From a virus, in the IMG/VR virus record IMGVR_UViG_3300044949_000561, positions 1 through 40,260 of that record: a DNA stretch of 40,260 bases, one strand, 5' to 3'. Shown piece after piece: positions 367 through 40,260 of this stretch (positions are counted from its first letter, which is position 1; every line of letters starts with the position of its first letter). The notes under the pieces were generated by a model that was not told the DNA's origin, made no database searches, and was given only the letters and a program-made list of their open reading frames with translations. Both the position numbers and the translations under genes were made by a program.

Positions 367-369
367 CAG

Positions 370-398
370 AAAAAAAAGGGGGCCGGTTGCCCGGCCCC
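370..398 (-). terminator. Rho-independent terminator after the capsid gene (left copy)
   Basis: On the minus strand an 8-bp perfect stem GGGGCCGG/CCGGCCCC with a 4-base loop (379-398) is followed by a run of eight T (370-377). It lies 8 bases past the capsid stop codon. The same element is conserved in the other copy at 38820-38847. It probably reduces read-through from capsid into the head-tail and tail genes. Confidence 0.85.
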
Positions 399-406
399 GT
401 CTCCTA

Positions 407-19849: not shown

Positions 19850-19922
19850 GCAGCAGCAGTAGGATTGGTGTGCCCCAGCGGGTTGCCGCCCCTGGAGCGT
19901 GACCACCTGCAATCACCAGGCG

Positions 19923-20477
19923 ATGACCACCAGCGTAGAGGTGTGGAAGCCCGTTGTCGGCTACGAAGGGCTTTACGAAGTGTCAAATCAAGGCAGAGTG
20001 CGGAGCCTGCCACGTCAAATAAAAAGAGGCAGCGGGACTTGGCTCAGGCCGGCGGTTTTTCTGAAGTGCTGCATCGACAAAAAAATTGGCTACCCCTTTG
20101 TGCGTCTGTACAAGGGAAGGCAATCGCAAATGTTTAGGCTTCACACTCTTGTGCTAACCGCCTTTGTCGGAGCACCTTCTCCCGGTGACCAATGCCGCCA
20201 TTTGAACGGAGATCGCAAGGATGCCAGGCTTTCAAATCTGGTGTGGGGGACGGCAAAGCAAAATTCTGCCGACAGACAAGTTCATGGCACCCAAGCGAAG
20301 GGCAGTCTTCATGGGATGTCAAAACTTACAGCAAAAGATGTGCGGTCTATTAGGCGCAGGTATGTGTTGAGATCCGCCAAGCATGGAAACGGCGGGGAGC
20401 TTGCCAGAGAGTATGGAATTTCAATCGGACAAATCCATCGAATTGTGCGAGGCAAGTCTTGGGCACACGTTCAGTAG
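19923..20477 (+). CDS. NUMOD4-HNH homing endonuclease
   Basis: A 184-residue nuclease with three modules: NUMOD4 (VEVWKPVVGYEGLYEVSNQGRVRS), an HNH_3 core (LHTLVLTAFVGAPSPGDQCRHLNGDRKDARLSNLVWGT) and a C-terminal HTH (AREYGISIGQIHRIVRG) for DNA recognition. Its base composition is visibly more AT-rich than that of its neighbours, a sign of recent transfer. It stands between two leftward genes (dcd and endolysin) on the opposite strand and overlaps the endolysin 3' end by seven bases. Confidence 0.9.
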   Translation: MTTSVEVWKPVVGYEGLYEVSNQGRVRSLPRQIKRGSGTWLRPAVFLKCCIDKKIGYPFVRLYKGRQSQMFRLHTLVLTAFVGAPSPGDQCRHLNGDRKDARLSNLVWGTAKQNSADRQVHGTQAKGSLHGMSKLTAKDVRSIRRRYVLRSAKHGNGGELAREYGISIGQIHRIVRGKSWAHVQ

Positions 20478-21562
20478 TCCCAGACCACCTTGGGCCGGCC
20501 TTGTCTAATTCCGCTGTGAATAAACCCTTTAGGCGCGCCCTTGCCAGTGCTGAACGGCCAGTTCTTGATGCACCAATCCTGCAGAGTGTAGATGTTCACG
20601 CCCTCGATGTACCAGTCAACGGCGCCGACGCCGGGGGCATTGAACAAGTGCTCTGAACGGCTGGCGCCACCAACCGAAGCGTTGACCTTTGGGTTTCTGT
20701 AGCCGCTGGTGATGATCACCGGTCTGCCGCCGAAATGAGCCCGCGCCTTTTCCAAGAACTGTGCAAGCTCGATGGCCGTCTCAACCTGATGCTGCGCGAC
20801 AAACCGGCGGCTTTCCTGTCCGAGCGCAAACTCACCCAGCGTGATGTGCTGCGTAAGCGGCGTGCTGAAAGGGGACCATGGCGTCACCTTCGCAACCGCA
20901 GGCTGCGTTTGAGAAGGCAGCCCAAGCCCTTCTAGCCAGAGGCGGCCCTCTGCCTTCCGGCGACGCAGCAAACCCGCCTCAACGTTGGTGTTCGGGTTGC
21001 GGTACAGAAGCAAGGCGTCTGGGACTTTGGACCAGTCCTTCTCTTGCAGCCTGGCCGAGATGGTTTCAAAACCGCTGGCGCCGTAGAAGGAGCTTCCAAC
21101 GTTGTAAGCCAGCGAGATCAGCGCGCACTTCTGCTGGTCCGTCATCTCCACCCAGAAGGGGATGGTGCTGCGCAGCTTGGTGGCGATGCGATCCACCTCT
21201 TGGCGCAGCAGCATGTCGGCCTCAACGGCGTTGATCTTGTCGCCGCGGCTGACGCGCCGGCCGTCTTGGTAGCGCGTGGTGCCGTAACCGATCGTCCAGG
21301 GGTCGCCGCCTGATAGCGGGTCAGGGTATGCCTCGAGGTGACAGCCCTCAAAGTCGCGGATCAGCTTCAGCGCCGCGCTCAGGTCCGCCTGCTTGCCGTC
21401 TTGGCTCCAAGTGTTGAACCATGCCCGATCGCGGCGCATTGCGGCTGCGTAGCCGTTAATGGCGAGATCCTGCTCCAGCTGCTGGATGGCTGCAGCCTGG
21501 TGGGGCAGGGCTTTGTAGAACCGAAACAGCTGCTCGAGTGTGATCGGGCTGGGGTTGCTCAT
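20471..21562 (-). CDS. Bifunctional endolysin: GH24 lysozyme plus M15-type peptidase
   Basis: A 363-residue endolysin with two cell-wall activities. Residues 60-212 are a T4-type GH24 muramidase, with Glu 72 (RDFEG), Asp 81 (YPDP) and Thr 90 (WTIGYG) as catalytic set. Residues 235-363 match the M15_3/DUF882 peptidase fold: ITSGYRNPKVN, then the zinc ligands His 305 (SEH), Asp 316 (AVDWY) and His 349 (IHSGI). A linker of about 20 residues joins them. There is no signal peptide, so release depends on a holin. ATG 21562 overlaps the stop of the predicted -1 frameshift product as ATGA. Confidence 0.92.
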   Translation of the reverse strand: MSNPSPITLEQLFRFYKALPHQAAAIQQLEQDLAINGYAAAMRRDRAWFNTWSQDGKQADLSAALKLIRDFEGCHLEAYPDPLSGGDPWTIGYGTTRYQDGRRVSRGDKINAVEADMLLRQEVDRIATKLRSTIPFWVEMTDQQKCALISLAYNVGSSFYGASGFETISARLQEKDWSKVPDALLLYRNPNTNVEAGLLRRRKAEGRLWLEGLGLPSQTQPAVAKVTPWSPFSTPLTQHITLGEFALGQESRRFVAQHQVETAIELAQFLEKARAHFGGRPVIITSGYRNPKVNASVGGASRSEHLFNAPGVGAVDWYIEGVNIYTLQDWCIKNWPFSTGKGAPKGFIHSGIRQGRPKVVWDY

Positions 21563-22831: not shown

Positions 22832-25210
22832 TTAGCGGGCGCGGGCAGACTGAAATGGGGATTCAGCAAATGCCGCGTAAACATAGGTGTACAAAGAGCT
22901 ATTTGCCCAACTGTCAGTAGTACGCAGCTTAAAACCGTTGCTTAATATATCGATGCCATTGCTGATGCCATTAGCGTTTTCTTCTCCGCCGCTGCTTGGA
23001 TCTAGGTCGTTGTCCGTGAGATTAAAAGTATTGCGAGCGGTGTCGTAAATCTGCCAGCCAGCTCCTGCATTAGAACCTTTAATCAAGACAAATCTTGGCT
23101 TAAATCCGGTATAGACGAAGATGCCATCAAGCGAACTGTTGCCGACGTAGCTGCCAAATGCGCTAAACCCGGCGACGGGCGCAAAACAGTAGGCGACATA
23201 CTTCTCGCCTGTTGCATTAGTACGGGTTGACGCCCCAACGCTAAAGACAGTGCTGGCCGGCAGCGTTCCCGACCATATTGTTGAGTTGGTATTTACAGCA
23301 GCGGTTGAGTTAAGCTCAACATATTCAGTCGTTGAAAAGCCATTAAATCGTGTTGCCCAGCCGAATGTTCCTACGTCTCTGTTTTTGACAATTAGCAATC
23401 CGGGCGCAACACCTAAGCCATGCCCGACAGTCGCGCCAGCCGTTTGATTGCCGGTATAAGTCACAACAGAAATACCGGCTGAAGCATTGGCCCTGACTTG
23501 CGCGCTAATACTGCCAGCGGTGTTGGTGACTGTTGAGCTGCCGGCATCCCAGCACCAAGCTGCGTAGACAGCAGCGTTGGTATTGACCTGCGCCAACGTG
23601 CCAAGGGTAAATCCGGCGCTGTTAAAGGCAGTAACGCCACTGTCCGTTGCAACCTCTGCGTCGGTGGTGTTTGATTCCAGCCGGATCTGTGCGCCACGCA
23701 CTGAGTCATAAATGGCGTGATCCGTGGCAGCAGATCGTGACTTGATCCAGATCAGATCAGGATTGAAGCCAAGCGTGCTGGTGGGCGTCAAACTGCTGCC
23801 ATTACCTATGTAGGTCACCACATCCATCGCCGTGGCGCCGTTGGCAACTGTTGGGGCAGGCAGGTTGGTGGTGCACAGCGCCTTGAAACCGCTTGGGGCG
23901 GTGTAGGCGAAGGGGCGTTGCCCCGCGTTGAAAGCGCCCGTAGTAGCGAAGCAGCTGATGCCTGGGTAGTAAGTGCCCGAGGCTATTCCAGTAAACGCAG
24001 TTCCTTGAGAGGTGCCGTTTTTGTAAAATGTAATAGAGCCTGCATCTAAGTCAAAAGCTACGCCGATAATATCTCCAGTGGTGTATGTCGCACCGTATGT
24101 AGACACCGAGCCGTAGTTGTATTTATTGCCATTCTGGTAATAGGCAAATCCAGTTGTGCCAACGTGGTCAGTGCTTGCCGCAGTGACAATTCCAACCATA
24201 AAGGTGGGGCCGGACGTTGTTGGCGATGCTTCAAAGTACCACTTGCCGCTGGTGACTCCAATAGTGGAATAGCGAGAACCCCACGCGGACCCAGGGCCCG
24301 CGTACTCCAGATTTCCGTTTGATAGCGTTCCCGTATTTGAGGAAGAATAAAACCACAACGGATTAAGCGTCGCGTAGTTCCCCCTCACCTCACCACCAGC
24401 ACCTGTATCGGTTCCGTAGTTAGTTGGTGTATCAACCAGGGAATCGTTGCCTGCGCCAGCAGTAACGCTCAGGTTGTTGACGGTCCAATCGTTGCTGCCA
24501 GCAGCGTCATTACCAAGGGCAGCGGCCGTGCTGTTGTCCGCGAAATCAAGGTGAAACCCGTTGGTGCCGTAGCTGCCGGTGTATGCCTTGGGCTGCCAGA
24601 CGTTGTTGGCGTCAAACTCGCCGAAGCTGGTGGGGTCTAGGGCTTGGCCGTCGATGAAGTGGATGTCGGCGAGGTAGCCGTTAAAATATTGACTTGATTG
24701 AGCCAAGTCTCCTATTGAGTGAAGAAAAGCTCCATTGAAAGCAAGGTCTGCGTTTGGGCTAGGGTATGTTGCCGATGAAAACTGGGTAACTTGTTGGCCA
24801 TTAACGTAAACCTTAAAACGATTGCTGTCTGTTCCCTGCGTGGTATCGCTTACTAAAGCGACATGAAACCAGCCACTTGGGTCTCGAAAAACTTGAGATG
24901 TTGTAAGAACTAATTGCGACCCCCCACCGTCCCGCGAATAAATATCTAGCGTGTCTGAAGAGGTAAAACGGAAATAGCTGTTGACAGAACCTGAGCTATA
25001 CGCTGCGAAAAAACTTTGGTTAGTGGAAAGTGTCGATCGCTTCACCCACCCCGCCCAGGTCCACGTCTTGCGGTTGCCGGCTGATGCAGGAGTGCGGCTG
25101 AGATACGCCGAATCGGCTGAGTTAAATCTGACGCTGCGTTCAATCTGGTAGCCGCCACCGCCACCGCCTGCAGGTGCACCAAGCAACAGAGAGTTGTTGA
25201 GAACGCTCAT
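22832..25210 (-). CDS. Tail fibre/spike with LamG and SPRY-like domains
   Basis: A 792-residue host-recognition protein. A Gly-rich N-terminus is followed by a LamG/concanavalin-like domain (about residues 25-215: TWTWAGWVKRS, GWFHVALVSD, FKVYVNGQQVT, GYLADIHFIDGQAL). A SPRY-like domain follows (about 290-440: GKWYFEASPTTSG, GDIIGVAFDLDAGSITFYKNG). The last 330 residues are a repeat-rich domain (PDLIWIKSRSA, PGLLIVKNRDVG, PRFVLIKGSNAGAG), typical of marine and freshwater cyanophage fibres. Carbohydrate or protein binding at the host surface is inferred from these folds. Base composition is more AT-rich than in the structural genes. Confidence 0.8.
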   Translation of the reverse strand: MSVLNNSLLLGAPAGGGGGGYQIERSVRFNSADSAYLSRTPASAGNRKTWTWAGWVKRSTLSTNQSFFAAYSSGSVNSYFRFTSSDTLDIYSRDGGGSQLVLTTSQVFRDPSGWFHVALVSDTTQGTDSNRFKVYVNGQQVTQFSSATYPSPNADLAFNGAFLHSIGDLAQSSQYFNGYLADIHFIDGQALDPTSFGEFDANNVWQPKAYTGSYGTNGFHLDFADNSTAAALGNDAAGSNDWTVNNLSVTAGAGNDSLVDTPTNYGTDTGAGGEVRGNYATLNPLWFYSSSNTGTLSNGNLEYAGPGSAWGSRYSTIGVTSGKWYFEASPTTSGPTFMVGIVTAASTDHVGTTGFAYYQNGNKYNYGSVSTYGATYTTGDIIGVAFDLDAGSITFYKNGTSQGTAFTGIASGTYYPGISCFATTGAFNAGQRPFAYTAPSGFKALCTTNLPAPTVANGATAMDVVTYIGNGSSLTPTSTLGFNPDLIWIKSRSAATDHAIYDSVRGAQIRLESNTTDAEVATDSGVTAFNSAGFTLGTLAQVNTNAAVYAAWCWDAGSSTVTNTAGSISAQVRANASAGISVVTYTGNQTAGATVGHGLGVAPGLLIVKNRDVGTFGWATRFNGFSTTEYVELNSTAAVNTNSTIWSGTLPASTVFSVGASTRTNATGEKYVAYCFAPVAGFSAFGSYVGNSSLDGIFVYTGFKPRFVLIKGSNAGAGWQIYDTARNTFNLTDNDLDPSSGGEENANGISNGIDILSNGFKLRTTDSWANSSLYTYVYAAFAESPFQSARAR

Positions 25211-26142
25211 TTCACGTCAGAAATCAGGCGAGCTGTGATGCGGCTTGCAGACTCGACGTAGTACGCGATCACGTCCACGGCCGCTGCGGTCGTCGTGAGT
25301 GTAGGCGCGGTCCCGCCTGGAAACTTCCAGTTGCCGCCATAAGCCAGCGTCCGCGAGCCAGTGCCGTCTTGCGTGATCACAATGGTGCCCGCTTGGCCAG
25401 CGGTCAGGTTGGTCGGGTTGGCCAGCGTGCGGTTGCCGGCCAGCGTGACGCTGAAGTTGTTGCCAGCTGCAAAATCAGGCGTGATCGTCGCGCCATCCGT
25501 CAGTGCCACCACCGAGCCGCGCTGCGCTGCGGTGAACGTCTGAGCTGCGGCGAGCAACGCCACAGAACTCCAGCCGAGAACGCCGCTGCCGTTGGTGGTC
25601 AGTGCTTGATTGGCAGTGCCATCAGCCGCCGGCAGTGTCAGTGTGTAGTTGGTGGCAATCGAGCCTGGTGCCTGCAGTGCCACCCAGTTGCTGCTGTCGA
25701 GATCCGCAAAGCGCAGGTCACCCTGAGCGTTGATCGTGACATCGCCAGTCAGCGTGCCACCTGCCAGTGGCAGGTAAGTGCTGGCGGCCGTGGCTGTAGT
25801 CAGATAGCCGCTGATGCTGGCGCCACCTGGAATTGTGACCGTGCCAGTGAACGTCGGGCTTGCCAGTGGTGCGTAGGTCGATGCTGCAGTAGCAGCGCTC
25901 AGCAGACCAAGGTTGGCAGCCGTGACATCACCGACGGTGATCCACGCGCTGTTGGCCGCGTTCCGAATCTTGAGAAGCGCCGGGGTGACGCCGGTGTCAA
26001 TCCACCACTGGTGGGCGTAGGTCGTTGCAGGCGCTGTCGAGCCGCTGTTCTGGCTGACGATCGCAGCCAGAATCGTGTTCAGCTCAGAGCGGAAGTTCGC
26101 GCCGCTCTGGTTGGCTATCGAGTAGTCAGTCGCCTGAGCCAT
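25207..26142 (-). CDS. Tail fibre protein with Ala/Thr-rich repeats
   Basis: A 311-residue protein. The N-terminus (YSIANQSGANFRSELNTILAAI) and the WWIDTG...LKIRNAANSAWITVG segment are typical of phage fibre head domains. The middle has 'AATAASTYLPLAGGTLTGDVTI' repeats that form triple beta-helix shafts, and the C-terminus (FTAAQRGSVVALTDGATITPDF...GNRTLANPTNLTAGQ...IVITQDGTGSRTLAYGGNWKF) is a known fibre/receptor-binding tail pattern. It lies directly after gpJ and its stop overlaps the LamG fibre start (four bases). Trimeric side or central fibre is likely. Confidence 0.8.
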   Translation of the reverse strand: MAQATDYSIANQSGANFRSELNTILAAIVSQNSGSTAPATTYAHQWWIDTGVTPALLKIRNAANSAWITVGDVTAANLGLLSAATAASTYAPLASPTFTGTVTIPGGASISGYLTTATAASTYLPLAGGTLTGDVTINAQGDLRFADLDSSNWVALQAPGSIATNYTLTLPAADGTANQALTTNGSGVLGWSSVALLAAAQTFTAAQRGSVVALTDGATITPDFAAGNNFSVTLAGNRTLANPTNLTAGQAGTIVITQDGTGSRTLAYGGNWKFPGGTAPTLTTTAAAVDVIAYYVESASRITARLISDVK

Positions 26143-29100
26143 TAGGTGATCTGCCTGCCGTGACCCACGGCCTGATAGTCAAAGACCTTCGAGACCATAC
26201 TACCCCCGCTGTTCCTGAACGTAACTGCAAAGCCAGATCGGGTCACGCTAGAAATCGTGAAGTAGTCGCCTGCTTCCATGTCTTGCGCTGTGATCCCGAT
26301 ACTGGGCACGGTGTAGAAGGCTGTCGGGAAGGTCACTGAGTAGCTTGCGGCACCGCTGGTGAGATTGCGTTGCGTTTCGGTACGTCGCTGGAATGTGGTC
26401 ACAACGCCCAGCTGCTCGACCACGACGTTTTCGCCTTTGTTGCTGCTGGTCGCTACGAGTTTGAACTGGAAACCGCGGCCGCGCGCGGTGTTGTTGACGA
26501 AAGGCTGCCAGCTGCTCCACGTTGGCGCGCTGCTTGGATTGGCAGTGGTGGTGCGAACGAACAGGCTGCAGTTGGCTTGTCCTAAATCGTCACCGTCGAC
26601 GGTCGTCCAAAGATCGACGTTTTCGACGCGATCATCCCAAAGGTTTCCGGGCTCGTAAGCGCGAGTTCTGAGGATGTTGCGGATGTCCACGTCGAACACT
26701 GCGCCAAGGTCGAGCGTTTCGCTGAACTGATAACTGCCCTCGCTCACTGCGCCGCCGATGTAATCAATCAAGCTCAGCGCGTCCCAGTCACCGTCTGGCG
26801 CCATATCATCCACCAGGGTGCCAGATGCCAAGATCAGCCCGCTCTCCTCAGAGCTGTAGCTCATTGAAGTGGTGGTGCCATTGAAGGGAGGGCTGTTGTC
26901 TTCTTCGCGGTACTCCTGCACGACAAAAGCATCCTGCGGCGCAGGTAGGTCAACCACCACGCTGGCAACACCAGCGGATTCATTGCCAAGGCTGTCTACG
27001 GCGCGGATGAAATAGGTGCCCTCAAGCAAGGGGACAATCTTGCGAGTGCTGCTGCCATTGACCGCTGGAACGATGTCGTTTGAGCGGCCCCAGGTTGCTG
27101 TGCCATCAACGAGAGGTGAATGGCGGATCCGGATCTCGCCACCAACCCGCACGTCCAAGTCAACCGATTGCGGCCAGTACAGTTCGGCGTTTTTGTCGTC
27201 GATTGGTGCGATAAACAGATCCGGTATTGTGACCGGCGGCGCAGTCTTGCCGATGGCGTCGAAGGTCAGCGGCGTAGGCGCCGATGCTCTCAGTGCAGCC
27301 GACAGGGACAGAACTTCAATCGAGTAGCGCCCGACGTTGCTGTTTGTGATTTCAAAATCTGGAGCGGTGGTGTCACCACTCACCCAGTTGCCGTCAGCGA
27401 AGCGATAACGCACGCGATAGCTCGTTGCAGTTGAGACTGGCCTCCAGCTGACGATAATCTTGGACAAAACCTGGCCGTTGCTTTCGTATAGAAGCTCATT
27501 GGCCTTTAGCTCGCTTGGCGGTGCCGGCGGCTCATTCAGGTTGCTGATGTCTCTGGTGACAAGCGGCACATCGCGCTCGATGAAATCGTATTTGCTGGGG
27601 TTATATGCCAGAGCGGTTATCGCGTATTTGACACCATCCTGCTCTTCAACTGCAAGCACGCGGAACAGCTGAGTTTTGATGCCACTGTCTTGGTAGATCC
27701 AAACCGCACCAGGTTGGGGCGTCTGACTGAAGGGCGCGTCAGTCGTGAAGACGTTATCGGTGCGATTGGTCAGGGCTTTGGTTTCAACCGATCCGTCTGG
27801 CAGAACAACAGAAAGCGTCGGCGCAGCGCCTGAGAATCGAATCGAATCCAGGTTATCTACCGTCACTGTCGTGGAAGTCGCTTCCACAATGCGGCCACCA
27901 GTGCGTTCACCAGAGCGCACGGGATCCGCGATTTCAATGACTTGCCCAGGCCGCACAATGATGCCAGCTTCAAGGCTTGTCGCAAAACTGACAGTTTCGG
28001 TTTCGTACTGTTCGCTGTAGAGCAACCACTCACCGAGACGGCGGGCTTGCCCGCGACTGGTGCAGGCGAAAGCGTCGATCTCTGCTTTGATCACGCCATA
28101 GCGCGCAATCGCTTCCTGATTCTCAACAACCTCGAACGACGCATCTCGAGCGTTGAGGTCAAGGTATTTTACGATTGCAACAGTATGGCGCGTCTTTAGT
28201 GCGCTGCCTGAGTAGGTAAAGCCTTCCTCGGTTACGTTGCTTTGGTTGAACAGATAGGCAGAGTCCTGTGGCTTGTCTTGTGTGACAGCAATCGCTCCCG
28301 CGCTCCAGTAGGGCATTGCGCGAAACACAGACGCCATCTGATTGATGACGTTGTACGCTTCATCGAGCGTCTGAATGTTGACGTTACAACTGAACCTAGG
28401 CTCAGTGCCGCCAAAGCCATTGATGACGTTTTGACCGCAGTATTGGCTGGCGGCGTAGAAATCCCACTTATCCAGCTTGGTTTCGTCGATGTGGTTGCCG
28501 GCGCCGTATCGTTTCGATGTGAGCAGATCGTAAAGACACCAAGCCGGATCAGTCGTCCATTGCGCTTGTGCAAACGTGCCGTTCCAGATCCCGGTGTAGG
28601 TGAGCTGGCCTGTTGTGCTGTTGACGCTGGCATTACTTGGGATGCGAACCTTGATGCCACGGATTCGGTACGATCGCGCCGGGATGTTGCTGAACTGCCT
28701 AGCGTCAACACGCAAGCCGACCAGTGCGCTGTTCGGATAGCGCAGCCTGGCGTAACTGATCTCGGTATAGGAAGACCAGAACAAGTCGCCAACCTTGTTG
28801 CTGGTCGTGTAGTCGGGAGTGATGCGAACAACTCTCACGTCAACCGGCAGCGAGCCGGTAAAGTTCAAACGAAATTCACGCTGGTAAAGGTCCGTAGTGC
28901 GACCCGTGAACTTGTCTGTAATCACACGGACAAACGGACCGCCATCGTAGGCAAGCTCGATGCCGAACTCGATTGTGTTGCCAAAGATGTCGTTTTTATC
29001 CGAAAACTCTTGAAGCTGTGGCGTCGAAAGCGTTACTCGAACACCGTTGACGCCAGCTGTGCTGACTGTGCGAGTAACGGGAATGTCTTTTTCGATCTTG

Positions 29101-29492
29101 ACGCCTACTGCGTATTCAGATTGCAGCGTGCGCGATAGCGGTATGAATTCCTGATCTTGCGTGCCGTATCGCGTAAATATCGTTAGGTTTTGAAAATTGT
29201 AGTCGCTAGGCTGCGGTGCGTTGGGATCAGCACCGGCTCGCAAGATTGGGGTGTTGTCTAGGTAGACATCTTTTAGCAGCGCAATATTGTAGGCATCAGA
29301 ACCACGCGCAAAACCGGCGGCGCTTGGAAAGCCTTCGATTTCGCCTTCAGACAGCAAATCAATGACTTCAGCGAACTGGGTTGAATCGAGATTGTCTGGC
29401 GTGGTCGATGGCGTGTAACTGCCGCCGCCACGATTGCCGCCGCCTTTACCGCCGCCACCACCACCACCACCAGCGCCACGAATAGCTTTCAT
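26142..29492 (-). CDS. Tail tip attachment protein (gpJ-like host specificity protein)
   Basis: An 1116-residue central tail-tip protein. It starts with a Gly-rich stretch and then FAEVIDLLSEGEIEGF, the classical gpJ opening. A beta-rich region (YTEISYARLRYPNSALVGLRVDA, GIKVRIPSN) and the block AYNVINQMASVFRAMPYWSAGAIAVTQDKP follow, then QARRLGEWLLYSE near residue 480. Residues about 665-860 look like two fibronectin-type III domains, and the rest is a terminal receptor-binding part. In lambda, gpJ forms the tip that contacts the receptor. The start overlaps the gpI-like gene stop by four bases. Confidence 0.92.
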   Translation of the reverse strand: MKAIRGAGGGGGGGGKGGGNRGGGSYTPSTTPDNLDSTQFAEVIDLLSEGEIEGFPSAAGFARGSDAYNIALLKDVYLDNTPILRAGADPNAPQPSDYNFQNLTIFTRYGTQDQEFIPLSRTLQSEYAVGVKIEKDIPVTRTVSTAGVNGVRVTLSTPQLQEFSDKNDIFGNTIEFGIELAYDGGPFVRVITDKFTGRTTDLYQREFRLNFTGSLPVDVRVVRITPDYTTSNKVGDLFWSSYTEISYARLRYPNSALVGLRVDARQFSNIPARSYRIRGIKVRIPSNASVNSTTGQLTYTGIWNGTFAQAQWTTDPAWCLYDLLTSKRYGAGNHIDETKLDKWDFYAASQYCGQNVINGFGGTEPRFSCNVNIQTLDEAYNVINQMASVFRAMPYWSAGAIAVTQDKPQDSAYLFNQSNVTEEGFTYSGSALKTRHTVAIVKYLDLNARDASFEVVENQEAIARYGVIKAEIDAFACTSRGQARRLGEWLLYSEQYETETVSFATSLEAGIIVRPGQVIEIADPVRSGERTGGRIVEATSTTVTVDNLDSIRFSGAAPTLSVVLPDGSVETKALTNRTDNVFTTDAPFSQTPQPGAVWIYQDSGIKTQLFRVLAVEEQDGVKYAITALAYNPSKYDFIERDVPLVTRDISNLNEPPAPPSELKANELLYESNGQVLSKIIVSWRPVSTATSYRVRYRFADGNWVSGDTTAPDFEITNSNVGRYSIEVLSLSAALRASAPTPLTFDAIGKTAPPVTIPDLFIAPIDDKNAELYWPQSVDLDVRVGGEIRIRHSPLVDGTATWGRSNDIVPAVNGSSTRKIVPLLEGTYFIRAVDSLGNESAGVASVVVDLPAPQDAFVVQEYREEDNSPPFNGTTTSMSYSSEESGLILASGTLVDDMAPDGDWDALSLIDYIGGAVSEGSYQFSETLDLGAVFDVDIRNILRTRAYEPGNLWDDRVENVDLWTTVDGDDLGQANCSLFVRTTTANPSSAPTWSSWQPFVNNTARGRGFQFKLVATSSNKGENVVVEQLGVVTTFQRRTETQRNLTSGAASYSVTFPTAFYTVPSIGITAQDMEAGDYFTISSVTRSGFAVTFRNSGGSMVSKVFDYQAVGHGRQIT

Positions 29493-30103
29493 TGCGCCAC
29501 CTGCTCCGTGCTGACGCCAGCCGAAATCACGATGCTGCCGACCAGCGTCTCGCCGTAAACGATTGGCACTGGCAAACCTTGTCTTGAAGCGTTCTGGATG
29601 CCGCTGAAGCTGTAGGACTTGCGCGGATCGGCGTCGCTGTTCTGACCTTTGGTTTGCAGCTGTGGCGTTGGTGTAAGAAGTTGAGCCACGCCACCAAGCA
29701 CCAAGCTGGCGCCAATGCCAACGCCAATCGAAACCGCTGTCGGGCCAAGCGTAAAGAGTCCGCCAGCCAGCGCTGCACCGGGCGCAAACAGTAGCGATAC
29801 GGCAATCAATGCAACGCCAGCTATGATCCGTCCCGCCGTGCCGGCACCAGCTACCACCGGAACGATTGAGATGGTTTCACGCTTGCCGGTTGGCAGGTGA
29901 AGCTCGCCGGGGTCCTCTCCCAACATCAATGGATGATCGCCGACCTTCACTTCATAGTGCTGCTCAGCCATGTGGCGCTCAAGCTGAGGAAAGTTGGCCA
30001 ATAAAAACTTGACGGCTTCAGCAGCCGTAGCAACATCAGCCTTGAATGATCGACGCTTGAGGAACTTGGCTAGGTTGCCGTAGATCCGAACGGTGCGCAG
30101 CAT
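29489..30103 (-). CDS. Tail assembly protein gpI-like
   Basis: A 204-residue protein. Residues 1-85 form the ubiquitin-like TAI domain (VRIYGNLAKFLKRRSF, EAVKFLLANFPQ, YEVKVGDHPL). Hydrophobic Gly/Ala helices follow (GAGTAGRIIAGVALIAVSLL and AVSIGVGIGASLVLGGVA), and the last 60 residues are a polar tail with YSFSGIQNASRQGLPVPIVYGE, a gpI/gpJ-contact pattern. It is needed for tip assembly in lambda. Order K-I-J is conserved. Confidence 0.88.
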   Translation of the reverse strand: MLRTVRIYGNLAKFLKRRSFKADVATAAEAVKFLLANFPQLERHMAEQHYEVKVGDHPLMLGEDPGELHLPTGKRETISIVPVVAGAGTAGRIIAGVALIAVSLLFAPGAALAGGLFTLGPTAVSIGVGIGASLVLGGVAQLLTPTPQLQTKGQNSDADPRKSYSFSGIQNASRQGLPVPIVYGETLVGSIVISAGVSTEQVAQ

Positions 30104-30106
30104 CTC

Positions 30107-30814
30107 TCACTCCATCCTGCTGCTGTGGCGCAGGGCGCGGCCAGTGCTTTTCAGATAATAGCCGCCGTAAACGTCCCGACTGCTCAGGCGTCCGCGGATG
30201 TGGTGCAGCAGCATCTGATCGCCCAGGTAGACGCCGCAGTGGTTCAGCTTGCTGTTCTCTAGTGCCATCAGCACCAGATCGCCGCGCTGCAGCTTTTCGA
30301 TCGAGATCTCGACGAAACCAGTCTGCTCCCAGCAGTCGTCAAAGGTTGGGCAGGCGTTGAACTCGAGCATCGAGGCCGGCCGCTCCCAGTCACGCAATTC
30401 TAAGCGCCACTCTTCTGCGTACCAGTCGCGCGCCAAGGTCCAGCAGTCAGACACTGCCCAAACCCACTCCCTGCCAATCAAGGGCGCTTTGTAGCCGCTT
30501 GGCCGCACCTCGTTCCACTGCTGTAGGTGAGGGCTGTAAATGTGCCAAGGCAAGCCGCTGCGTTCGCACGCGATCAGATCGGCCTGGCTTGGCCGCGAAT
30601 CACCGAACGGATGGCTGTGAACCACAGCCGTGATCTCTCCTGCATCCTCAGCAGCTGCCCAGTCCAAGGGGTCAAGCACAAAAAACTGCTGATCTGTTGC
30701 CAAGTTGCGACAGGGCCAGTAGCGCTCACGGCCCTTGACGACAACGACCAAACCGCACGCCTCACGCGTCACGTCAGCGGCTAGGTGCTTAGCAGCGGCA
30801 TCTCGCCAGCTCAT
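30107..30814 (-). CDS. Tail tip assembly protein gpK-like (JAMM plus NlpC/P60)
   Basis: A 235-residue protein with two hydrolase domains. The N-terminal JAMM metalloprotease has Glu 18 (EACGL), His 66 and His 68 (VVHSHP), Ser 76 and Asp 79. The C-terminal NlpC/P60 domain has catalytic Cys 124 ([11 protein letters not shown]) and His 192 ([10 protein letters not shown]), with a third polar residue in LLHHIRG. Lambda gpK has the same arrangement; it probably processes tail-tip components or cell-wall peptides during entry. ATG 30814 overlaps the gpL-like gene stop by four bases. Confidence 0.9.
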
Positions 30815-33636
30815 GCGAAATACTGCCCCACACCAGGGAAGCTGCCAAATGGCAAGTCCGCCTGATCACCAAAGCGCAACCGGCAGCTGCTTAACCGCTT
30901 GCCGCATACATCAACAAAATCACTGCCATCTCCTGGAATCTTGGGCTCTACGGCCGTGAAATAGCCAGCGTTCCAGACTGGGTTGTTATTGACATCAAAC
31001 AATACAAAGTTTCCATCGTTTTGCAGGCGCAGCGTTCCATTGGAACTGAGTACACCTAGGATTCTGTACTGGCGTCCAACGGAACTCATCGTGCCCAATG
31101 GGTGAACCCTAAATGGATTGGCTGTTGATAGAGTGATGAACGCATCAACAAACTCGTCGAGATACCAGCGGCCAACGCTGGAAAGGTAAGTTTCGCTTGT
31201 AAGCGACCATGATTTGTTTTGGTTGCTGTAGTGACCAGCAGGCAGATCAACATTTGCCACGCCAGTAAAGCTCACAGTCAGAGAGCGTGTTCCGAATACA
31301 AAAGTTCGGGTTACGGTCTTGGTCTGCCCGGCTTGAGAAACAGCGCTACCAAATATCTCCCAGAAGAAAGCGTGCGCACGGTTGTCGCCAGTCTCCTGCT
31401 TGATGCCAGGTTCTGAGTCGTTTGTGTAACCGTTCGACCATCGAACGCTGCCGTTTGTGGAGATGGTGAGCGTACCTGTGCCGCCGATCGTCAGGGTTGA
31501 AGTCGGATAAGCAGGAAACGACGGCTCAACCGATGAGCCGGTAGCTGTGCTCCAAAGCGGGGTGTCCCATGTTTCGTTGGTGACCGTAATGGTTGGCTCG
31601 GACTGCTTTCCTGTCCAACTACGCCAGATCGGTGTGTTATTTCGATCAAACAGCGCAAACTCACCGCTGCCATCAAGTCGCCAGACGTAGCCAATGTTTT
31701 GTGGGTACTGCCCTCGGTTTGTCCACCAAATAGGCGTCACCCCGTCTACGGCATACAGCACGAGGTTGCCATCCGGCTGGAACGCGGCGAAATGTGCAGC
31801 CGTTCCGAATGTGCCGCTATTCCAAGTAACCGCGCCAGCCTTGTCGGTGATGACAAGATTGCCGTCGGTTTGCATCGACAGCCGGTACCAGCCGTTTGTC
31901 GAATAAAGCGACTGCCCTTTGTAAAGCCGACTGCCATCGCCAGCGCCAACAAAAATCTGGCCAGTGCCGATCGGATAATTGGGGGCTGGCACCCTGACTG
32001 TCGAAGTGCTGCCGCCAACGCCGTAGATGACCATATTGCCGTCGGGCTGCAGCACCAAGCGCTTGCCTGCGTTAACTGGGTACGAGCCACTGTTTGACTG
32101 CCACTTAACGCCTCCACTGTTGTCGTAAAGAACAAGGTTGCCGTCAGCCTGAAATTGCGCGTAGGTAGCGCCCGATCCGGCGGTGTTGGTTTGCCAGACG
32201 ACGACGTTGCCCTTGCTGGTGATCGACAGGTTGCCGTTCACCGCCATGGAAAGGCGATACCAGCCGTTGGTTGAGTAAAGGTTCTGCCCAGCCGAAAGCC
32301 TGCTGCTGACGGTGCTGCCCGCAAGTAGCTCACCGGTGCCAGACGGGAAATTCCCAGCAGCGCCTGTGGAAGTTGGCGCGATACCAGTGCCACTGCTCCA
32401 GATCGCTGCGCCATCTGAATAGCGATAGAGCACTAGGTTGCCGTCAGGCTGGAACCACGCATAGGAGGGCTGGCCACCTGTTTGCGTGCTCCAGACGGGG
32501 TAATTTGATTTGTTGTAGACGACTAGGTTTCCATCCCGCTGCATTAGCAGGCGATACCAGAGGTTGGCCGATGTCAGCGATTCTCCAGGGTAAAGCTGAA
32601 AACCGGAACCAGTCGATGATGCTGAAGAGGCTTGCGCCGAAAAGTTGGGCGCAGGCGTCCATAAAAAATTACCGCTATCACCATTTGGATAGGAGTCGGG
32701 AACTAGCTTCGTGAAATCGAGACTAGAAATTGTCGCCTGGTTCTGAGTATTTGAGTTCCAAGTTGGGCGGTTGAAAGCGTCGTAAATTACAAGGTTGCCG
32801 TCTGCTTGGTAAGCAAAAGTAGATAAGCCTTTGCCGTAGGTAAGCGTGCTCCAGACTGCTTTGAGCGCCTTGTTAAAAATTACCAAGTTGCCATCAGTCT
32901 GCATAATTACTTTGTACCAGCCGTTAGGAGATACAAGGAATTGATTCGGGCCTAAGCCTTCACCTGGCGTTAGTTGCGTCGCCGCAGCTGAAAAGTTTGG
33001 CGCAGTGACAAGGTTGGCTGGGTTGTCGTTCTCGTCAAATACAGCCGAACCGGTGTAGCCGCACTCAGGGGATCGGTACACCCATTGGCACACGCTGCTG
33101 ATGCATTGCCGTCCCGGCAGCTTGACGTTCATCAGATCGATAGCCGCAGCCAGCTCAAACTCAATTAACTCGCGGTTTTCCGTGACCTTGCGATCAATGT
33201 AGTAAACCTCGCGCGGAGCTTCTGCTGTCGGGTCAGGGCTGCCGTAAGGGTTCTGATTGCCTTCAAAGTTAACAGCGTCCAAATACCGAGCGCAGGTCCG
33301 GATGCGAATGATCTTCGCTCCGATCAGATCGTTGCCTGGCGTTACGTCATTAACGTTTAGCAAAACGGAAGTGATAACGCTGAATAGGTTGCTGACTCTT
33401 AGCCTTGGCCGAGGCAACTGCTGGCCGTTGTATTCAAAACCATCGGCCTCAATCGGGAATTGCTGGTAGCGATTGCCATTCCACACGATGTCGCCGCGTG
33501 AAAATTTCTGATTTATTCCAGAGTGGAATCTATAGATCTCAGTGGCGCCATGTAGCTGCAGCTCAGTGTGCAGCTCAAAAAGCTCGATTATGGCGGACGG
33601 CGCAAGTGATTGCAGCTCGGAGATAATGCTGGCCAT
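30811..33636 (-). CDS. Tail tip protein gpL-like with large bulb-type lectin insertion
   Basis: A 941-residue protein, about four times lambda gpL. Residues 1-200 match gpL, ending [21 protein letters not shown] (Cys 183 and 192). The final 35 residues match the rest of gpL ([15 protein letters not shown], Cys 911 and 918, LPFGSFPG). The spacing of both Cys pairs is that of the four ligands of the gpL iron-sulfur cluster (C-x8-C and C-x6-C). Between them lie about 700 residues with some eleven bulb-lectin (B_lectin) units; at least six carry the complete mannose-binding QxDxNxVxY motif. [17 protein letters not shown] beta region near residue 735 separates the last unit. The sheath of lectin units probably binds surface glycans. 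Confidence 0.85.
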
Positions 33637-33977
33637 CAGATTGCAATCACCTCACGAAAAGTAGCCTGAATGTTGTTCAAGTTGCATCCCGCGTGGTCTA
33701 CGCTCCACTCCTCGCACACATAAAAGGCGGCTCCACCGTAGGGATTTGTCCAAGTAAAAGCATCAACGCCACGTCGAGCCTCTAGAAACCCCTTGATTTG
33801 CTCCGCTTCATCGTCGGATCTGTTGTCAAAACGTAGCTGCCAAGTCTTAAAGTCAGTCTTCAAGCCAAAGCTAAGGCGCTGCTCGTATCCATCGCTGAAC
33901 CGCACGATTCGCGTTGCGGGCTTGCTCGACTCAACTGCCGAGTAGCTGGGTGTGTAGGTGAACGCGAGTGTTGTCAT
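33636..33977 (-). CDS. Minor tail protein gpM-like
   Basis: A 113-residue tail-tip protein of the gpM family. It has the typical VRFSDGYEQRLSFGLKTDFKTWQLRF start, the EAEQIKGFLEARRGVDAFTWTNPYG middle, and a C-terminal strand block with EWSVDHAGCNLNNIQATFREV. It joins the tail tube to the tip in lambda. The stop codon overlaps the start of the gpL-like gene by one base; tape measure lies three bases upstream. Confidence 0.92.
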   Translation of the reverse strand: MTTLAFTYTPSYSAVESSKPATRIVRFSDGYEQRLSFGLKTDFKTWQLRFDNRSDDEAEQIKGFLEARRGVDAFTWTNPYGGAAFYVCEEWSVDHAGCNLNNIQATFREVIAI

Positions 33978-33980
33978 GGG

Positions 33981-36182
33981 TTACGCCGCCAACAGGCCGC
34001 CAGGCCGCTTCTGCCGTACCAATTCTGCCTGCACCGCCTGCGAAATGGCACGGCCAAGCTGCTCACCCTGTCCGCTGTTGCCCTGCACGTTAGTGCCCTT
34101 GGCATCCACATTTACCACCACGCTGGTGCCGCCACCACCGGCTACGCCCAGCTTGCCGTCACGGCCGCGCTTCAGCGGGATGATCGCCTCAGGGCCAGCC
34201 TCTCCCATCAGGCCGTTGCGGAGTGCGCCACCGCTGGCGAACTTGAACAAAGTGGGGCTGTTTACGATGCCGTTCGTGAAGGTGCCGCCACTGGCGAAGG
34301 CCCCAAGGGGGAAGAGTTTGCTAGACGACAACGCGCCAGCGCCGCTCAGGTTTGCATTGGCGCTAGCCAGCGGCCCGCCTGGCAGCAGGCTTTGAATAAA
34401 CTGCAGGATCGGCGCGATGATCAGCATCCGCGTCACCATCCGGGTCAAGTCCTCGATCACCGACAGGGCAAATTCCTTAAAGCTGAACTTGCCTGTCATC
34501 GTCAGGCTGACGATCGCATCCTCAAGGCCCTTCAAAGCGTTCTGCGCCGCGTTGCTGATGTTCTCGGCCAGTGAGCCGATGCCTTCTAGGTAGACGGCGA
34601 TGCCATCGCGTGCGCCCTTGATGGCGCCTTGCTGTGCCTCCGCGGCATCAGTGAACTCGAGCAAGTCGATCGCAGCCTCGGCCGCGCGGTCGCCAATTTC
34701 CTTCAACCCTTGCTGATACTCCTTGTCTGCCAGCGCGACGTTGCCCTCTGAGATCTGGTTGATTAGATCCTCAAAAGGCTTGATGTCGATCTGGCCGCCA
34801 GCCTCGTTGATCTCGAGGGCCAGCTTCACCACGTCGCGGGTCAGCTCATCGACCAGCCGATTGTTTTCGGTGATCGCTTCATTGCGGCGCAAAGCCAGCT
34901 GGTCAAACTCATTGGCGCCCACGCCTGCATAGGCGCTATTAAGATCCTCCACGCTTTCACGCAACTGCCGCTGCAGATCCAGCGCACGCTGGCCAAGGTC
35001 ACGCCGGCGCTCTTCTAGACGCTCCTGTTCAGCCGCTGCACGCTTGGCCGCGGCCTCAGCCTTTTTGGCTGCCGCTTCAGGATCAGATGCCCGGCCAGGG
35101 AGCAATGCTGGGATGGCTCGTTGCGTTGGCCGTGTCAGCCTGTCGGTCTTGCTGAACTCAGGCTGCTGCTGCAGCAATCTGATGAAGTTCTGAGTGTCAA
35201 AGCCAAAACCCAAAAAGCCAGGGCCAGCTTGCTGCTGCAGCTGACGCCGGCGCGCTTCACCGATGATGCGATCGAGCGCCTCAGGACCGCCGAACGGCAG
35301 TTTGCCTGCCTTGATTGCAGCCCTAGTGTCCGCCTCCTGAGGTCCGTTGATCGCAGTCTTTATGGCAAGGTTGATCGTGTCGAGGATGTTGATCGCATAG
35401 TCCAGGATCGCCTTCATCGCAGGCGCAAGGATGTTGCCAAGCGTCTGGGACAGAGCGGTGATGTTGTCCTTCAGCGTGCTGAACTTGCCGTTTAGCGTGT
35501 CGCTCTGAGCGATTGCGCCGTCTGCGTACTTGCCGCCGGCATCCGTAAGCCGCTCGATCGCCAGCTCAACAGCCTCGGCGCTAATCCGGCCACCTTCCAA
35601 TGCCTTGGTGAACTCTTGGCCCTGCAGCTTGTACATCTGCTGCAGTTCTGCAGATAGCGCTACGCCGCGCTCTTGGAACTGAAGCAGCTCCTCACCCTGC
35701 AGGCGGCCCTTGGCCACAACTTGCCCGTAAGCGGTCGCCAGCTCCGTCAAGTTGGCGCCAGTTGCACCAGCCACGTCGCCAAGGTTTTTCACCACCTCAA
35801 CAACGCGCACAGACTCCACGCCAAAAGCGTTCAGGCGCTTTGCTGTTTCGATCAGCTCTGTCGCCTCAAAGGGAGTGGCCGCTCCGTAGGACTGCAGCTC
35901 TCTGATGATCTGCGAGGCTTGCTGCGCGCTGCCGGTCAAAACCTGAAGGCTTTTTGCTTGGCTTTGCAGGGTGGCAGTATCACCAAAGATCTTTGTAAAG
36001 ATCACGCCGCCGCCAACCAGGCCAATCAAGCCGCCGATGCCGCCGCGCAGCCCAGCCATCGCTAGGTTCAGGTTCTTGACCCGCCCCTCGACGCCCTGCA
36101 TCGAGTTACCGAGCCGGCGAATGTTGTTCTCGCCCTGAACGTCCGCCTTGATGCGGAGCATGGCCTGTAGGTTCATCGCCAT
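33981..36182 (-). CDS. Tape measure protein
   Basis: A 733-residue tape measure. N-terminal residues 1-60 include MLRIKADVQGENNIRRLGN and a Gly-rich hydrophobic helix (GLRGGIGGLIGLVGGG). The 70-210 part (LQVLTGSAQQASQIIRELQSYGAAT, TELATAYGQVVAKGRLQGEELLQF) is the TMP core domain of this family. Long charged coiled coils (AKKAEAAAKRAAAEQERLEE) lie at 370-440, and a C-terminal Gly/Ser/Ala-rich part ends GEAGPEAIIPLKRG, a hallmark of lambda-like tape measures. By the usual 0.15 nm per residue the tail would be about 110 nm (inference). Confidence 0.92.
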   Translation of the reverse strand: MAMNLQAMLRIKADVQGENNIRRLGNSMQGVEGRVKNLNLAMAGLRGGIGGLIGLVGGGVIFTKIFGDTATLQSQAKSLQVLTGSAQQASQIIRELQSYGAATPFEATELIETAKRLNAFGVESVRVVEVVKNLGDVAGATGANLTELATAYGQVVAKGRLQGEELLQFQERGVALSAELQQMYKLQGQEFTKALEGGRISAEAVELAIERLTDAGGKYADGAIAQSDTLNGKFSTLKDNITALSQTLGNILAPAMKAILDYAINILDTINLAIKTAINGPQEADTRAAIKAGKLPFGGPEALDRIIGEARRRQLQQQAGPGFLGFGFDTQNFIRLLQQQPEFSKTDRLTRPTQRAIPALLPGRASDPEAAAKKAEAAAKRAAAEQERLEERRRDLGQRALDLQRQLRESVEDLNSAYAGVGANEFDQLALRRNEAITENNRLVDELTRDVVKLALEINEAGGQIDIKPFEDLINQISEGNVALADKEYQQGLKEIGDRAAEAAIDLLEFTDAAEAQQGAIKGARDGIAVYLEGIGSLAENISNAAQNALKGLEDAIVSLTMTGKFSFKEFALSVIEDLTRMVTRMLIIAPILQFIQSLLPGGPLASANANLSGAGALSSSKLFPLGAFASGGTFTNGIVNSPTLFKFASGGALRNGLMGEAGPEAIIPLKRGRDGKLGVAGGGGTSVVVNVDAKGTNVQGNSGQGEQLGRAISQAVQAELVRQKRPGGLLAA

Positions 36183-38363: not shown

Positions 38364-38638
38364 GTCTTCTGCAGTCCGATTTCGACAAAGGCGCCGTCGT
38401 CAATCAGGCGCGTCTCGCGCACGGTGTAGGCCACCGTCGCCACCGTGATGCTGTCGCCGTACTTCAGGCCGCCGAAATCGGTCGCCCGTGCCGTCAGGGT
38501 GTAATCGGTGCTCAGCACCATCTCACCCGCCAGCACCTGCGTGGGCATGTCGAGTATGCCCAACGCTGAAACAGCGCCAGCTGTGCAGCTGACGCCAAAA
38601 TCGTCCAGAAATACGCCGAGGTCTTCAGTCAGCGCCAT
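38360..38638 (-). CDS. Head-tail joining protein (gpFII-like position), full-length copy
   Basis: A 92-residue beta-rich protein: FLDDFGVSCTAGAVSALGILDMP, DYTLTARATDFGGLKYGDSITVATVAYTVRE and a C-terminal strand GAFVEIGLQ. Size and location between the capsid region and the tail terminator fit a head completion/stopper protein; several gpFII-group proteins contain such a 'YGD.v.V.g..Y.V.e' block. It is the full version of the gene cut at the left contig edge. Confidence 0.78.
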   Translation of the reverse strand: MALTEDLGVFLDDFGVSCTAGAVSALGILDMPTQVLAGEMVLSTDYTLTARATDFGGLKYGDSITVATVAYTVRETRLIDDGAFVEIGLQKT

Positions 38639-38816
38639 CGGTCGCCTCTGCCTTGGGCTTGCGCGCAGCCTTGGGCTTTGCTTCTTCAGCAGGCGCCTCC
38701 ACAGCCCGGCCGATCCGCAGCAGCTCGGCTGCTACATCAGCGGCCAAGTCGTAGACCTTGCCTTCCTCGAGGTGCTCACCTTGGGCGGCACAGGTGCGCT
38801 TGATCAGTAGCTTCAT
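38625..38816 (-). CDS. Small conserved head-region protein (63 aa), right copy
   Basis: A 63-residue protein, the counterpart of 184-366 with about a dozen residue changes and three extra residues. The core EEGKVYDLAADVAAELLRIG is retained and most changes lie in the Lys/Ala/Glu-rich tail, a pattern of purifying selection that supports it as a real gene. Function unknown; position as for the left copy. Confidence 0.7.
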   Translation of the reverse strand: MKLLIKRTCAAQGEHLEEGKVYDLAADVAAELLRIGRAVEAPAEEAKPKAARKPKAEATDGAD

Positions 38817-38819
38817 GCG

Positions 38820-38847
38820 AAAAAAAGGGGGCCGGTTGCCCGGCCCC
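38820..38847 (-). terminator. Rho-independent terminator after the capsid gene (right copy)
   Basis: Minus-strand stem GGGGCCGG/CCGGCCCC (38847-38840 with 38835-38828) with a four-base loop, followed by seven T (38826-38820). It is the same element as at 370-398 and preserved despite sequence differences on both sides. Confidence 0.85.
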
Positions 38848-38855
38848 TCCTCCTA

Positions 38856-40260
38856 TCAGGCGGTGGTCACGTCGAGGATCGCGGCGAAGCTCTCCGCATG
38901 GCGGACAGCCACGTCGTAGGTGATGATCCCGCGAACCGAGGTCAGAGCCTTGGAGAAGTCGTCGGAATCTTCGCCCACGGTGATCTCGAGGCCGTTGCCC
39001 CAGAAGCCAACCATGGCCTGGCTGAAGTCACCCATCAGCACAGCAGAGCAGACGCCGCTGCTGGTGCCCTTGGTCAGGTTGCTGGGAACCTGGTTGGTCA
39101 CGCCGATGGGGTAGCCGTTGATCTCGGAACCGGCAGGGCCGCGGCCGAGGGTGTTGCCAACAGCGTTCACCAGGAAGGGGCCGTCGCCGGTGGTGGAACC
39201 ACCTGCGCGCAGCTTCTTCAGGGCGCCCATCACCTTGGCATTGGTGACATAGGCCACGGCATCGCGGTTCACGGCGCCGTTGTCGATCATCACCTCGGTC
39301 TCGAGGTCCACCAGCTTTTCCAGGGTGATAGCACCGCCGTTGGTGCCCATCGCCACGGAGCCGATGCCGGAGGTCTGCATGATGCCGGTGGGCTGGCCGC
39401 TGGAGCCAGAACCGTTCAGGATGCCGAGATCGACAGCCAAGTTCAGGCCATCGGTCAGGTCACGGCGCACCAGCTCCTCGATACCAGGGGTGCCCTGCAA
39501 CAGGGTCTGGCGGCTGTACTTGGACAGGGCGGCCAGGTTCTTGGGGCTCATGGTCACCTGGTCGAAGGTGGACTCCGACTGGGTGATCGCGGTGGTCTGG
39601 GTGCTCAGGTAGTAGGTCGAGGCAACACCGGAGCGGCGGGGAATCGCCACGTTGCCCACCAGGCCAGGCATGGTGCGCACGCCAAGGCTCAGCATCAGGG
39701 AGCCGTTGCGCAGCGCCTCGATGAAGTCATCAGCCAGCAGATCGGTAGCAACCAGGTTGCCGCCGGTGGTGGGGCCGGAGGTCACGTAGGTGGCGCGCTT
39801 GCTCAGAGCAGAAAAAGGCACGAAGAAGGAGCGCTCAGCGGTCTTGCTGACGCCGGACTTCTCAACCTCGCGGGACAGCTCGCGCACCAGGCCAGCCTCG
39901 CGGCTCGACCAGTCGCCGGTCAGGGCGGCGCGGATGCCAGCGGTGAGGCTGTAGCCGGCGCGCTCCTGGGCAGCCATCTCAACGGGTGCCACGGTCTCAA
40001 CAGGCTTGGCGCCAATCTTCTCGAGCACAGCGGCACGGGCCTCATCGAGGCTGCGGCCACCCTCGATCAGCTGGCGGCCGAGATCAGCCATGCCGTGCTT
40101 TTCGGTCAGAGCAGTGATGCCGGAGATGCGGGTGCGCTCAGCTTTGGCAGCCTCAGCAGCCGCTTCAGCCCGCACCGCCGAGATGTCGGGGGTGTTTTCC
40201 ATCGGAACCTCAGGTTCTGTTTCGGGGGTTGGTGATGCGGCTGGGGCCGCAGGATCAGTC
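38856..40260 (-). CDS. Protease-major capsid fusion, right copy, N-terminus cut off
   Basis: This is the capsid part (448 residues from the internal Met at 40202) and a short stretch of upstream linker that runs off the contig end. It is homologous to 407-1811 with about 20 residue changes, most of them clustered in the shell domain (for example Tyr-to-Ala after FIE, Asn-to-Gly before SLML, SVPNALGR versus AVGNTLGR). The protease half is outside the window on this copy. The internal TGAGG-ATG start (40202) is preserved. Confidence 0.9.
   Translation of the reverse strand, partial: TDPAAPAASPTPETEPEVPMENTPDISAVRAEAAAEAAKAERTRISGITALTEKHGMADLGRQLIEGGRSLDEARAAVLEKIGAKPVETVAPVEMAAQERAGYSLTAGIRAALTGDWSSREAGLVRELSREVEKSGVSKTAERSFFVPFSALSKRATYVTSGPTTGGNLVATDLLADDFIEALRNGSLMLSLGVRTMPGLVGNVAIPRRSGVASTYYLSTQTTAITQSESTFDQVTMSPKNLAALSKYSRQTLLQGTPGIEELVRRDLTDGLNLAVDLGILNGSGSSGQPTGIMQTSGIGSVAMGTNGGAITLEKLVDLETEVMIDNGAVNRDAVAYVTNAKVMGALKKLRAGGSTTGDGPFLVNAVGNTLGRGPAGSEINGYPIGVTNQVPSNLTKGTSSGVCSAVLMGDFSQAMVGFWGNGLEITVGEDSDDFSKALTSVRGIITYDVAVRHAESFAAILDVTTA

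Follow-up and report, generated by a model that had tools for sequence, protein, structure and literature searches.

Background

Can the hub protein at the tip of a phage tail, and not only its fibres, bind glycans, and if so, where in the hub would the binding domains be accommodated? The question is raised by the IMG/VR virus record IMGVR_UViG_3300044949_000561, which was analysed at positions 1 to 40,260 (i.e. a stretch of 40,260 nucleotides, referred to here as the window). A preliminary description, made from the letters of this stretch, had proposed that one of its proteins has the ends of lambda gpL, that an array of bulb-type lectin repeats is looped out of its iron-sulfur (Fe-S) domain, and that the tail tip would thereby become a multivalent glycan binder. 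In phage lambda the cluster cysteines of gpL are Cys173/182 and Cys205/212, the Fe-S domain sits at the outside of the tail tip, and the function of the Fe-S cluster of gpL hubs is said to be uncharacterised so far (PMC10721106). The C-terminal region of gpL has been called a focus of hypervariability in a 2026 paper (PMC13243795).

By combining profile searches, structure prediction and a survey of relatives, we arrived at a reading that we consider probable, namely, that the window protein would be a lambda-type tip hub, the inter-cysteine loop of which bears a glycan-binding side arm composed of four bulb-type (beta-prism II) lectins and one unnamed domain.

A gpL-type protein in a lambda-type tail-tip operon

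The 941-residue protein matches the Pfam family Phage_tail_L (PF05100) with E=2.4e-53 and 180.9 bits, against a curated cut-off of 25. Both halves of the profile are matched: model positions 5-174 align to residues 32-211 and positions 175-205 to the C-terminus, the insert point lying between model positions 174 and 175. For the N-terminus the closest solved relatives by sequence are gpL-type hubs, and in a Foldseek comparison the predicted N-terminal domain resembles lambda gpL (8iyk_L) with a TM-score of 0.55-0.56 on the target. The surrounding genes, as assigned by Pfam and PHROG, follow the tape measure gene in the order M-L-K-I-J (loci other than the window are denoted below by L numbers):

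33981..36182, minus strand: tape measure protein (PF20155, PF09718)
33636..33977, minus strand: gpM-type distal tail protein (PF05939)
30811..33636, minus strand: gpL-type hub protein with lectin insert (941 amino acids plus stop, ATG start)
33091..33636, minus strand: N-terminal attachment (HDI) domain of gpL, residues 1-182 (PF05100; Foldseek to 8iyk_L)
33061..33090, minus strand: Fe-S domain, first half, Cys183/Cys192 (C-x8-C; sequence and alignment)
30883..30906, minus strand: Fe-S domain, second half, Cys911/Cys918 (C-x6-C; sequence and alignment)
30814..30921, minus strand: C-terminal segment of gpL (protein identical in L003)
30107..30814, minus strand: gpK-type JAB and NlpC/P60 protein (PF14464, PF00877)
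29489..30103, minus strand: gpI-type tail assembly/plug protein (phrog_32)
26142..29492, minus strand: gpJ-type hub/central fibre (PF24801, PF13550, phrog_31)

Judged by its sequence and its neighbours, the 941-residue protein is the gpL of a lambda-type tail-tip operon; the assignment that had been proposed from the ends of the protein thus agrees with the match to both halves of PF05100, the cysteine spacings and the position in the operon.

The protein contains six cysteines (115, 178, 183, 192, 911 and 918), the last four of which form the two pairs that had been described, with spacings equal to those of lambda. The pairs are separated by 718 residues, and in the PF05100 alignment the insertion falls exactly between them, gpLs that lack an insert being gapped at this point. 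In an alignment of 60 sequences Cys183 is invariant, Cys192 is conserved in at least 90%, and the four-cysteine pattern is kept in the 60 relatives. Given the presence of this pattern, the window gpL has a putative [4Fe-4S] cluster. By analogy with hubs of known structure (see below), the Fe-S domain likely folds across the gap, with the array pointing outward.

Anatomy of the insert

A search of the insert against the B_lectin profile (PF01453), which the preliminary description had put forward as a check, yielded a match with E=1.2e-29 and 103.3 bits (curated cut-off 32.4). A motif scan recovered six exact copies of the mannose-binding consensus QxDxNxVxY (at residues 277, 366, 396, 496, 530 and 620), in line with the at least six that had been claimed. 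A chance origin of these motifs can be dismissed, as none of 2000 shuffled sequences contained a single exact copy. Together with three sites in which only the Tyr is changed (246, 589 and 872) and three degenerate ones (465, ~654 and ~709), the repeats amount to twelve, where about eleven B_lectin units had been estimated; the B_lectin identity itself is borne out by the profile and by the predicted fold. The insert is made up as follows:

30922..33003, minus strand: complete insert, residues 212-905 (~694 residues; gapped in gpLs without insert)
32737..32982, minus strand: lectin A, repeats A1 and A2 (motifs at 246 and 277; motif scan and alignment)
32383..32619, minus strand: lectin B, repeats B1 and B2 (366 and 396; motif scan and alignment)
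32014..32343, minus strand: lectin C, repeats C1-C3 (465, degenerate, 496 and 530; motif scan and alignment)
31609..31971, minus strand: lectin D, repeats D1-D3 (589, 620 and ~654, degenerate; motif scan and alignment)
31441..31539, minus strand: degenerate repeat X, residues ~700-732 (motif ~709), proposed third repeat of lectin B (inferred from L006 and short relatives)
31072..31431, minus strand: unnamed domain, residues ~736-855 (FFWEIFGSA...NPFR; also present in short-insert gpLs)
30943..31053, minus strand: repeat Y (motif at 872, QNDGNFVLF), proposed third repeat of lectin A (alignment)

Four lectin starts, each marked by a segment of the type ...NGWYR..., can be recognised. Lectins C and D have three consecutive repeats each, lectins A and B two, and the repeats X and Y stand singly further on, with the unnamed domain of ~120 residues between them. 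On this basis the twelve repeats are read as four beta-prism lectins, which share the insert with one unnamed domain. The view that the stretch between the cysteine pairs is a lectin array therefore holds for most of its length, but residues ~736-855 form a separate, non-lectin domain. In none of the eight members searched did the unnamed domain give a significant Pfam match; a single weak PDB profile match (flagellin-hook protein, E 0.0008) was not taken as meaningful. For the insert as a whole, the closest solved relatives by sequence are pyocin L1, LlpA and plant lectins.

Predicted fold

Two AlphaFold2 models were obtained, from 34 (model 1) and 60 (model 2) aligned sequences, with a mean pLDDT of 77.7 and 78.4 and a pTM of 0.45 and 0.37, respectively. 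Because of the low pTM the arrangement of the domains in these models is unreliable, and at the Fe-S cysteine pairs model 1 gives pLDDT values that lie for the most part below 50, and model 2 values of ~40-66. The lectin blocks have a pLDDT of mostly 70-93 (model 1). Foldseek matched the models to lambda gpL (8iyk_L), pyocin L1, LlpA and the Scilla lectin (entries including 4led, 3m7h and 1dlp), and the lectin blocks are predicted to adopt the beta-prism II fold.

Genome and host

A picocyanobacterial host is likely on two grounds: the portal protein shares 62-64% identity with that of the Synechococcus phages S-LBS1, S-CBS1 and S-CBS3, and for the terminase the nearest relatives are those of S-CBS3 and S-CBS1. 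By annotation, the three phages have head genes in common with the window but a different set of tail-tip genes; the tail genes thus appear to come from elsewhere, i.e. the genome appears to be mosaic.

The two ends of the window (1-1811 and 38442-40260) match each other over 1.8 kb with 89% identity. Each encodes a copy of the major capsid protein, the left one being fused to a prohead protease (407-2335) and the right one lying at 38856-40202. The genome is probably circularly permuted, with ends that derive from two strain variants and a unique length of ~38.4 kb; the alternative is a true duplication of the capsid gene.

Several other genes deserve mention. Positions 22832-25210 encode a large protein that resembles a fibre, contains SPRY and DUF7483 domains and has kin in aquatic phages, among them those of Pelagibacter and cyanobacteria; further candidate glycan binders besides gpL are thus present in the tail. 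A two-domain endolysin (phage lysozyme, PF00959, and peptidase M15, PF08291) is encoded at 20471-21562, and a dCTP deaminase-like gene (PF22769) lies at 19331-19912.

Conservation of the reading frame

Since strain variants appear to have been co-assembled at the ends of the contig, it has to be asked whether the gpL frame is itself an assembly chimera, or else a recent non-functional fusion. The same frame was, however, recovered with 60-92% identity from separate contigs of IMG/VR, and further contigs were found by means of the lectin profile. In comparison with L003, dN/dS is ~0.03 (about 0.033) in the N-terminal core domain and likewise in the insert; these are pairwise NG86 estimates, some with a dS near saturation, and the ratios are accordingly rough. 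The last 36 residues of gpL are identical to those of L003 at the protein level at a dS of 0.81. The recurrence of the architecture in several independent contigs refutes a chimeric frame and, together with the low dN/dS, argues that the frame is neither chimeric nor decaying; we regard the chance of either as negligible. The sugar-binding motifs are mostly kept in the orthologues as well (A2 in 9/9, B2 in 10/10, B1 in 8/9, and C2 and C3 in 9/11), in counts that include near-identical contigs and hence rows that are not independent.

The insertion site across gpL relatives

To place the insert in the context of the family, we compared 152 distinct complete gpL frames, taken from the best 80 loci of each of five scans, a sampling that does not reflect natural frequencies. 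In 103 of the 152 fewer than 40 residues separate the cysteine pairs, that is, the site is empty, and these proteins continue from NDNP without any insert. Gaps of 60-250 residues (9/152) hold non-lectin domains that differ among themselves, gaps of 250-400 residues (35/152) are filled by the unnamed domain together with a single lectin, or by a decayed form thereof, and gaps of more than 400 residues (5/152) hold three to four lectins. Lectin motifs were found in the gap of 30 of the 152 frames. A tree built from the N-terminal domain allows a common clade for the gpLs with one and with several lectins (p-AU 0.79, a value that does not prove such a clade), and the other inserts require about five separate changes on it.

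The survey bears on the possibility that the insert is mainly structural, i.e. a rigid decoration or collar, or a surface that other tail proteins contact, and that the binding of sugars is secondary or lost. Several relatives (L016, L021, L085 and L063) keep a recognisable insert in which the residues of the sugar-binding motif are degenerate, as are three of the twelve sites in the window itself, and the same site accepts non-lectin domains (in L025, L244, S-2L, L257 and L260). As L016, L021 and L085 have lost motif residues and yet keep the insert, some members of the family may use it for a different ligand or as a structural element. In the clade of the window, however, the motifs are mostly exact, are kept in orthologues and are under strong purifying selection, and for the window protein we consider a mainly structural insert unlikely.

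Other positions in these proteins vary too. A lectin precedes the gpL N-terminal domain in L079:4611-5672; in L111:4687-6354 one follows the fourth cysteine, and the N-terminal domain has an extra insert. A second insertion hot spot of gpLs lies after the fourth cysteine and ahead of the LPFGSFPG tail; it is occupied by a domain of ~215-236 residues in L032, L042, L059, L066, L309, L310, L330 and L340. The cysteine pairs are missing, for example, from L073, L074, L075, L083, L084, L089, L010 (cyanophage MED4-117) and L008 (marine virus AG-345-A17), and from part of L080-L093; such Fe-S-less gpL-like proteins have ~192 residues and a short ...EFPSIGT tail, and that of L008 also has an insert in its N-terminal domain. 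Finally, L104:4651-9039 encodes a hub-like tail protein of 1463 residues that belongs to a different tip system and the middle part of which is an array of B_lectins (six motifs), and the resemblance of these lectins to those of the window suggests an exchange of modules between tip proteins.

Among 50,697 records of isolated phages no lectin-bearing gpL was found; four Pseudomonas phage records have a separate B_lectin gene, with non-tail surroundings in both of the two that were inspected. Among the best matches in plasmids, gpL and lectin genes occur apart and without fusion, and of the 67 gpL loci from bacterial genomes one has a lectin insert (L138, a MAG contig with a broken frame). Lectin-bearing gpLs are probably already present in databases without having been described, because a viral fold library contains a 'Bulb-type lectin domain containing protein [uncultured Caudovirales phage]' and a 522-residue 'putative minor tail protein L'.

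Proposed nesting and growth of the array

The short relatives have one lectin start and two repeats, followed by the unnamed domain and a last repeat shortly before DVCGKR. Because of this order, the simplest unit would be a lectin A whose third repeat is separated from the second by the unnamed domain. In L006, three lectin starts and nine repeats were counted, and in the window gpL four starts and twelve repeats. The simplest reading of the lectin order in the window is therefore one of nesting, which would run A1 A2 [B1 B2 [C][D] X] [unnamed domain] Y. Judged by the same order, the array probably grew by the insertion of whole lectins into the gap that precedes the third repeat of an existing lectin.

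Comparison with known systems

The closest parallel is provided by the hubs of RcGTA and of the roseophage R4C. In the RcGTA hub (gp13, Rcc01696) an ion-binding domain consists of residues 143-167 and 250-263 and encloses an oligosaccharide-binding domain (168-249); in the R4C hub the iron-binding domain consists of residues 142-161 and 244-266, with an insert at 162-243. The cryo-EM structures of both show an Fe-S cluster, and the sugar-binding label of the insert itself rests on structural likeness (PMC7296036, PMC10276861). In the R4C sequence the cysteines are 147/157 and 244/251, and the C-x6-C pair is followed two residues on by RF, as in the window gpL. What these hubs have in common with the window protein is thus a trimeric gpL-equivalent hub with a two-segment Fe-S domain, in which the cysteine pairs flank an insert. 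Their single insert of ~82 residues differs from the four B_lectins and unnamed domain of the window, which are ~8-9 times larger, and they belong to PF09931 and PF09356, whereas the window protein belongs to PF05100 and PF01453. The window gpL would thus work like the split hub of RcGTA and R4C while lying outside their sequence family, with sugar binding suggested by homology.

Lambda gpL, T1 gp36 and the F2-pyocin hub share PF05100 or its profile and the operon position with the window protein, and lambda shares the four cysteine spacings; in lambda, however, the pairs are 22 residues apart and there is no glycan-binding insert. LlpA and pyocin L1 are the nearest solved lectins by sequence and fold and have QxDxNxVxY sites (PMC3585409), but they are free bacteriocins with two lectin domains and not parts of a virion. 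In the gpL of the isolated cyanophage S-2L the same site is occupied by an insert of ~180 residues that lacks lectin motifs. The one-lectin gpLs of IMG/VR (L018-L054, L219 and others) have lectin A, the unnamed domain and the last repeat at the same site, and differ from the window in having one lectin instead of three or four.

The preliminary description knew of no described case. Within the open-licence papers that were searched, this stands for B_lectins within a gpL, and no case of bulb-type or mannose-binding lectins in phage tails was found there; it does not stand for the splitting of the Fe-S domain, which was already known from RcGTA and R4C. In other words, the principle is known and the lectin array in gpL is a large and different variant of it.

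Proposed role of the array

In lambda the Fe-S domain faces outward at the tip, and the role of the array is for that reason likely to be multivalent glycan binding during adsorption. The two Fe-S halves would rejoin around the cluster, as they do in the RcGTA and R4C hubs, and a trimeric hub would present ~12 lectins per tip, which would allow high-avidity attachment to the host polysaccharide. Related bacteriocin lectins with the same motif bind mannose and D-rhamnose (PMC3585409; titles of entries 4led and 4gc1), and the lectins of the window may likewise recognise residues resembling mannose or rhamnose in the polysaccharide of the host surface, holding the tip against the cell until gpJ reaches its receptor. 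The earlier suggestion of a multivalent glycan binder at the tip is in agreement with the gpL identity, the insertion site, the B_lectin homology and the conservation, on which it can now be based.

The relationship to pyocin L1 and LlpA, i.e. the fact that the closest solved bacterial lectins are bacteriocins, could also point to lectins that kill in the manner of LlpA, or that attach the particle to non-host material (environmental polysaccharide or mucilage). The module is, however, embedded in a core tip protein and not encoded by a separate secreted gene, and LlpA-type lectins themselves recognise sugars of the LPS of the target cell (PMC6465234); a non-host or killing role therefore seems to us very improbable, and adsorption to the host remains our preferred reading.

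Implications

At a higher level, we see an even chance that the Fe-S domain of gpL-type hubs serves generally as a docking point at which glycan-binding side arms can be exchanged, and that in this lineage repeated nesting (one lectin being opened by another, and that one by two more) has enlarged it to up to 12 lectins per tip, with the cluster acting as a staple that tolerates a very large loop without disturbing the hub. The fact that the inter-cysteine site accepts unrelated domains of ~90 to 740 residues suggests that the cluster may be a rigid clamp, able to accommodate insertions at the surface. The relatives, with no, one, three or four lectins, constitute a graded natural series in which the valency of the tip could be related to adsorption, and phage tips, besides fibres, may display glycan binders at such sites.
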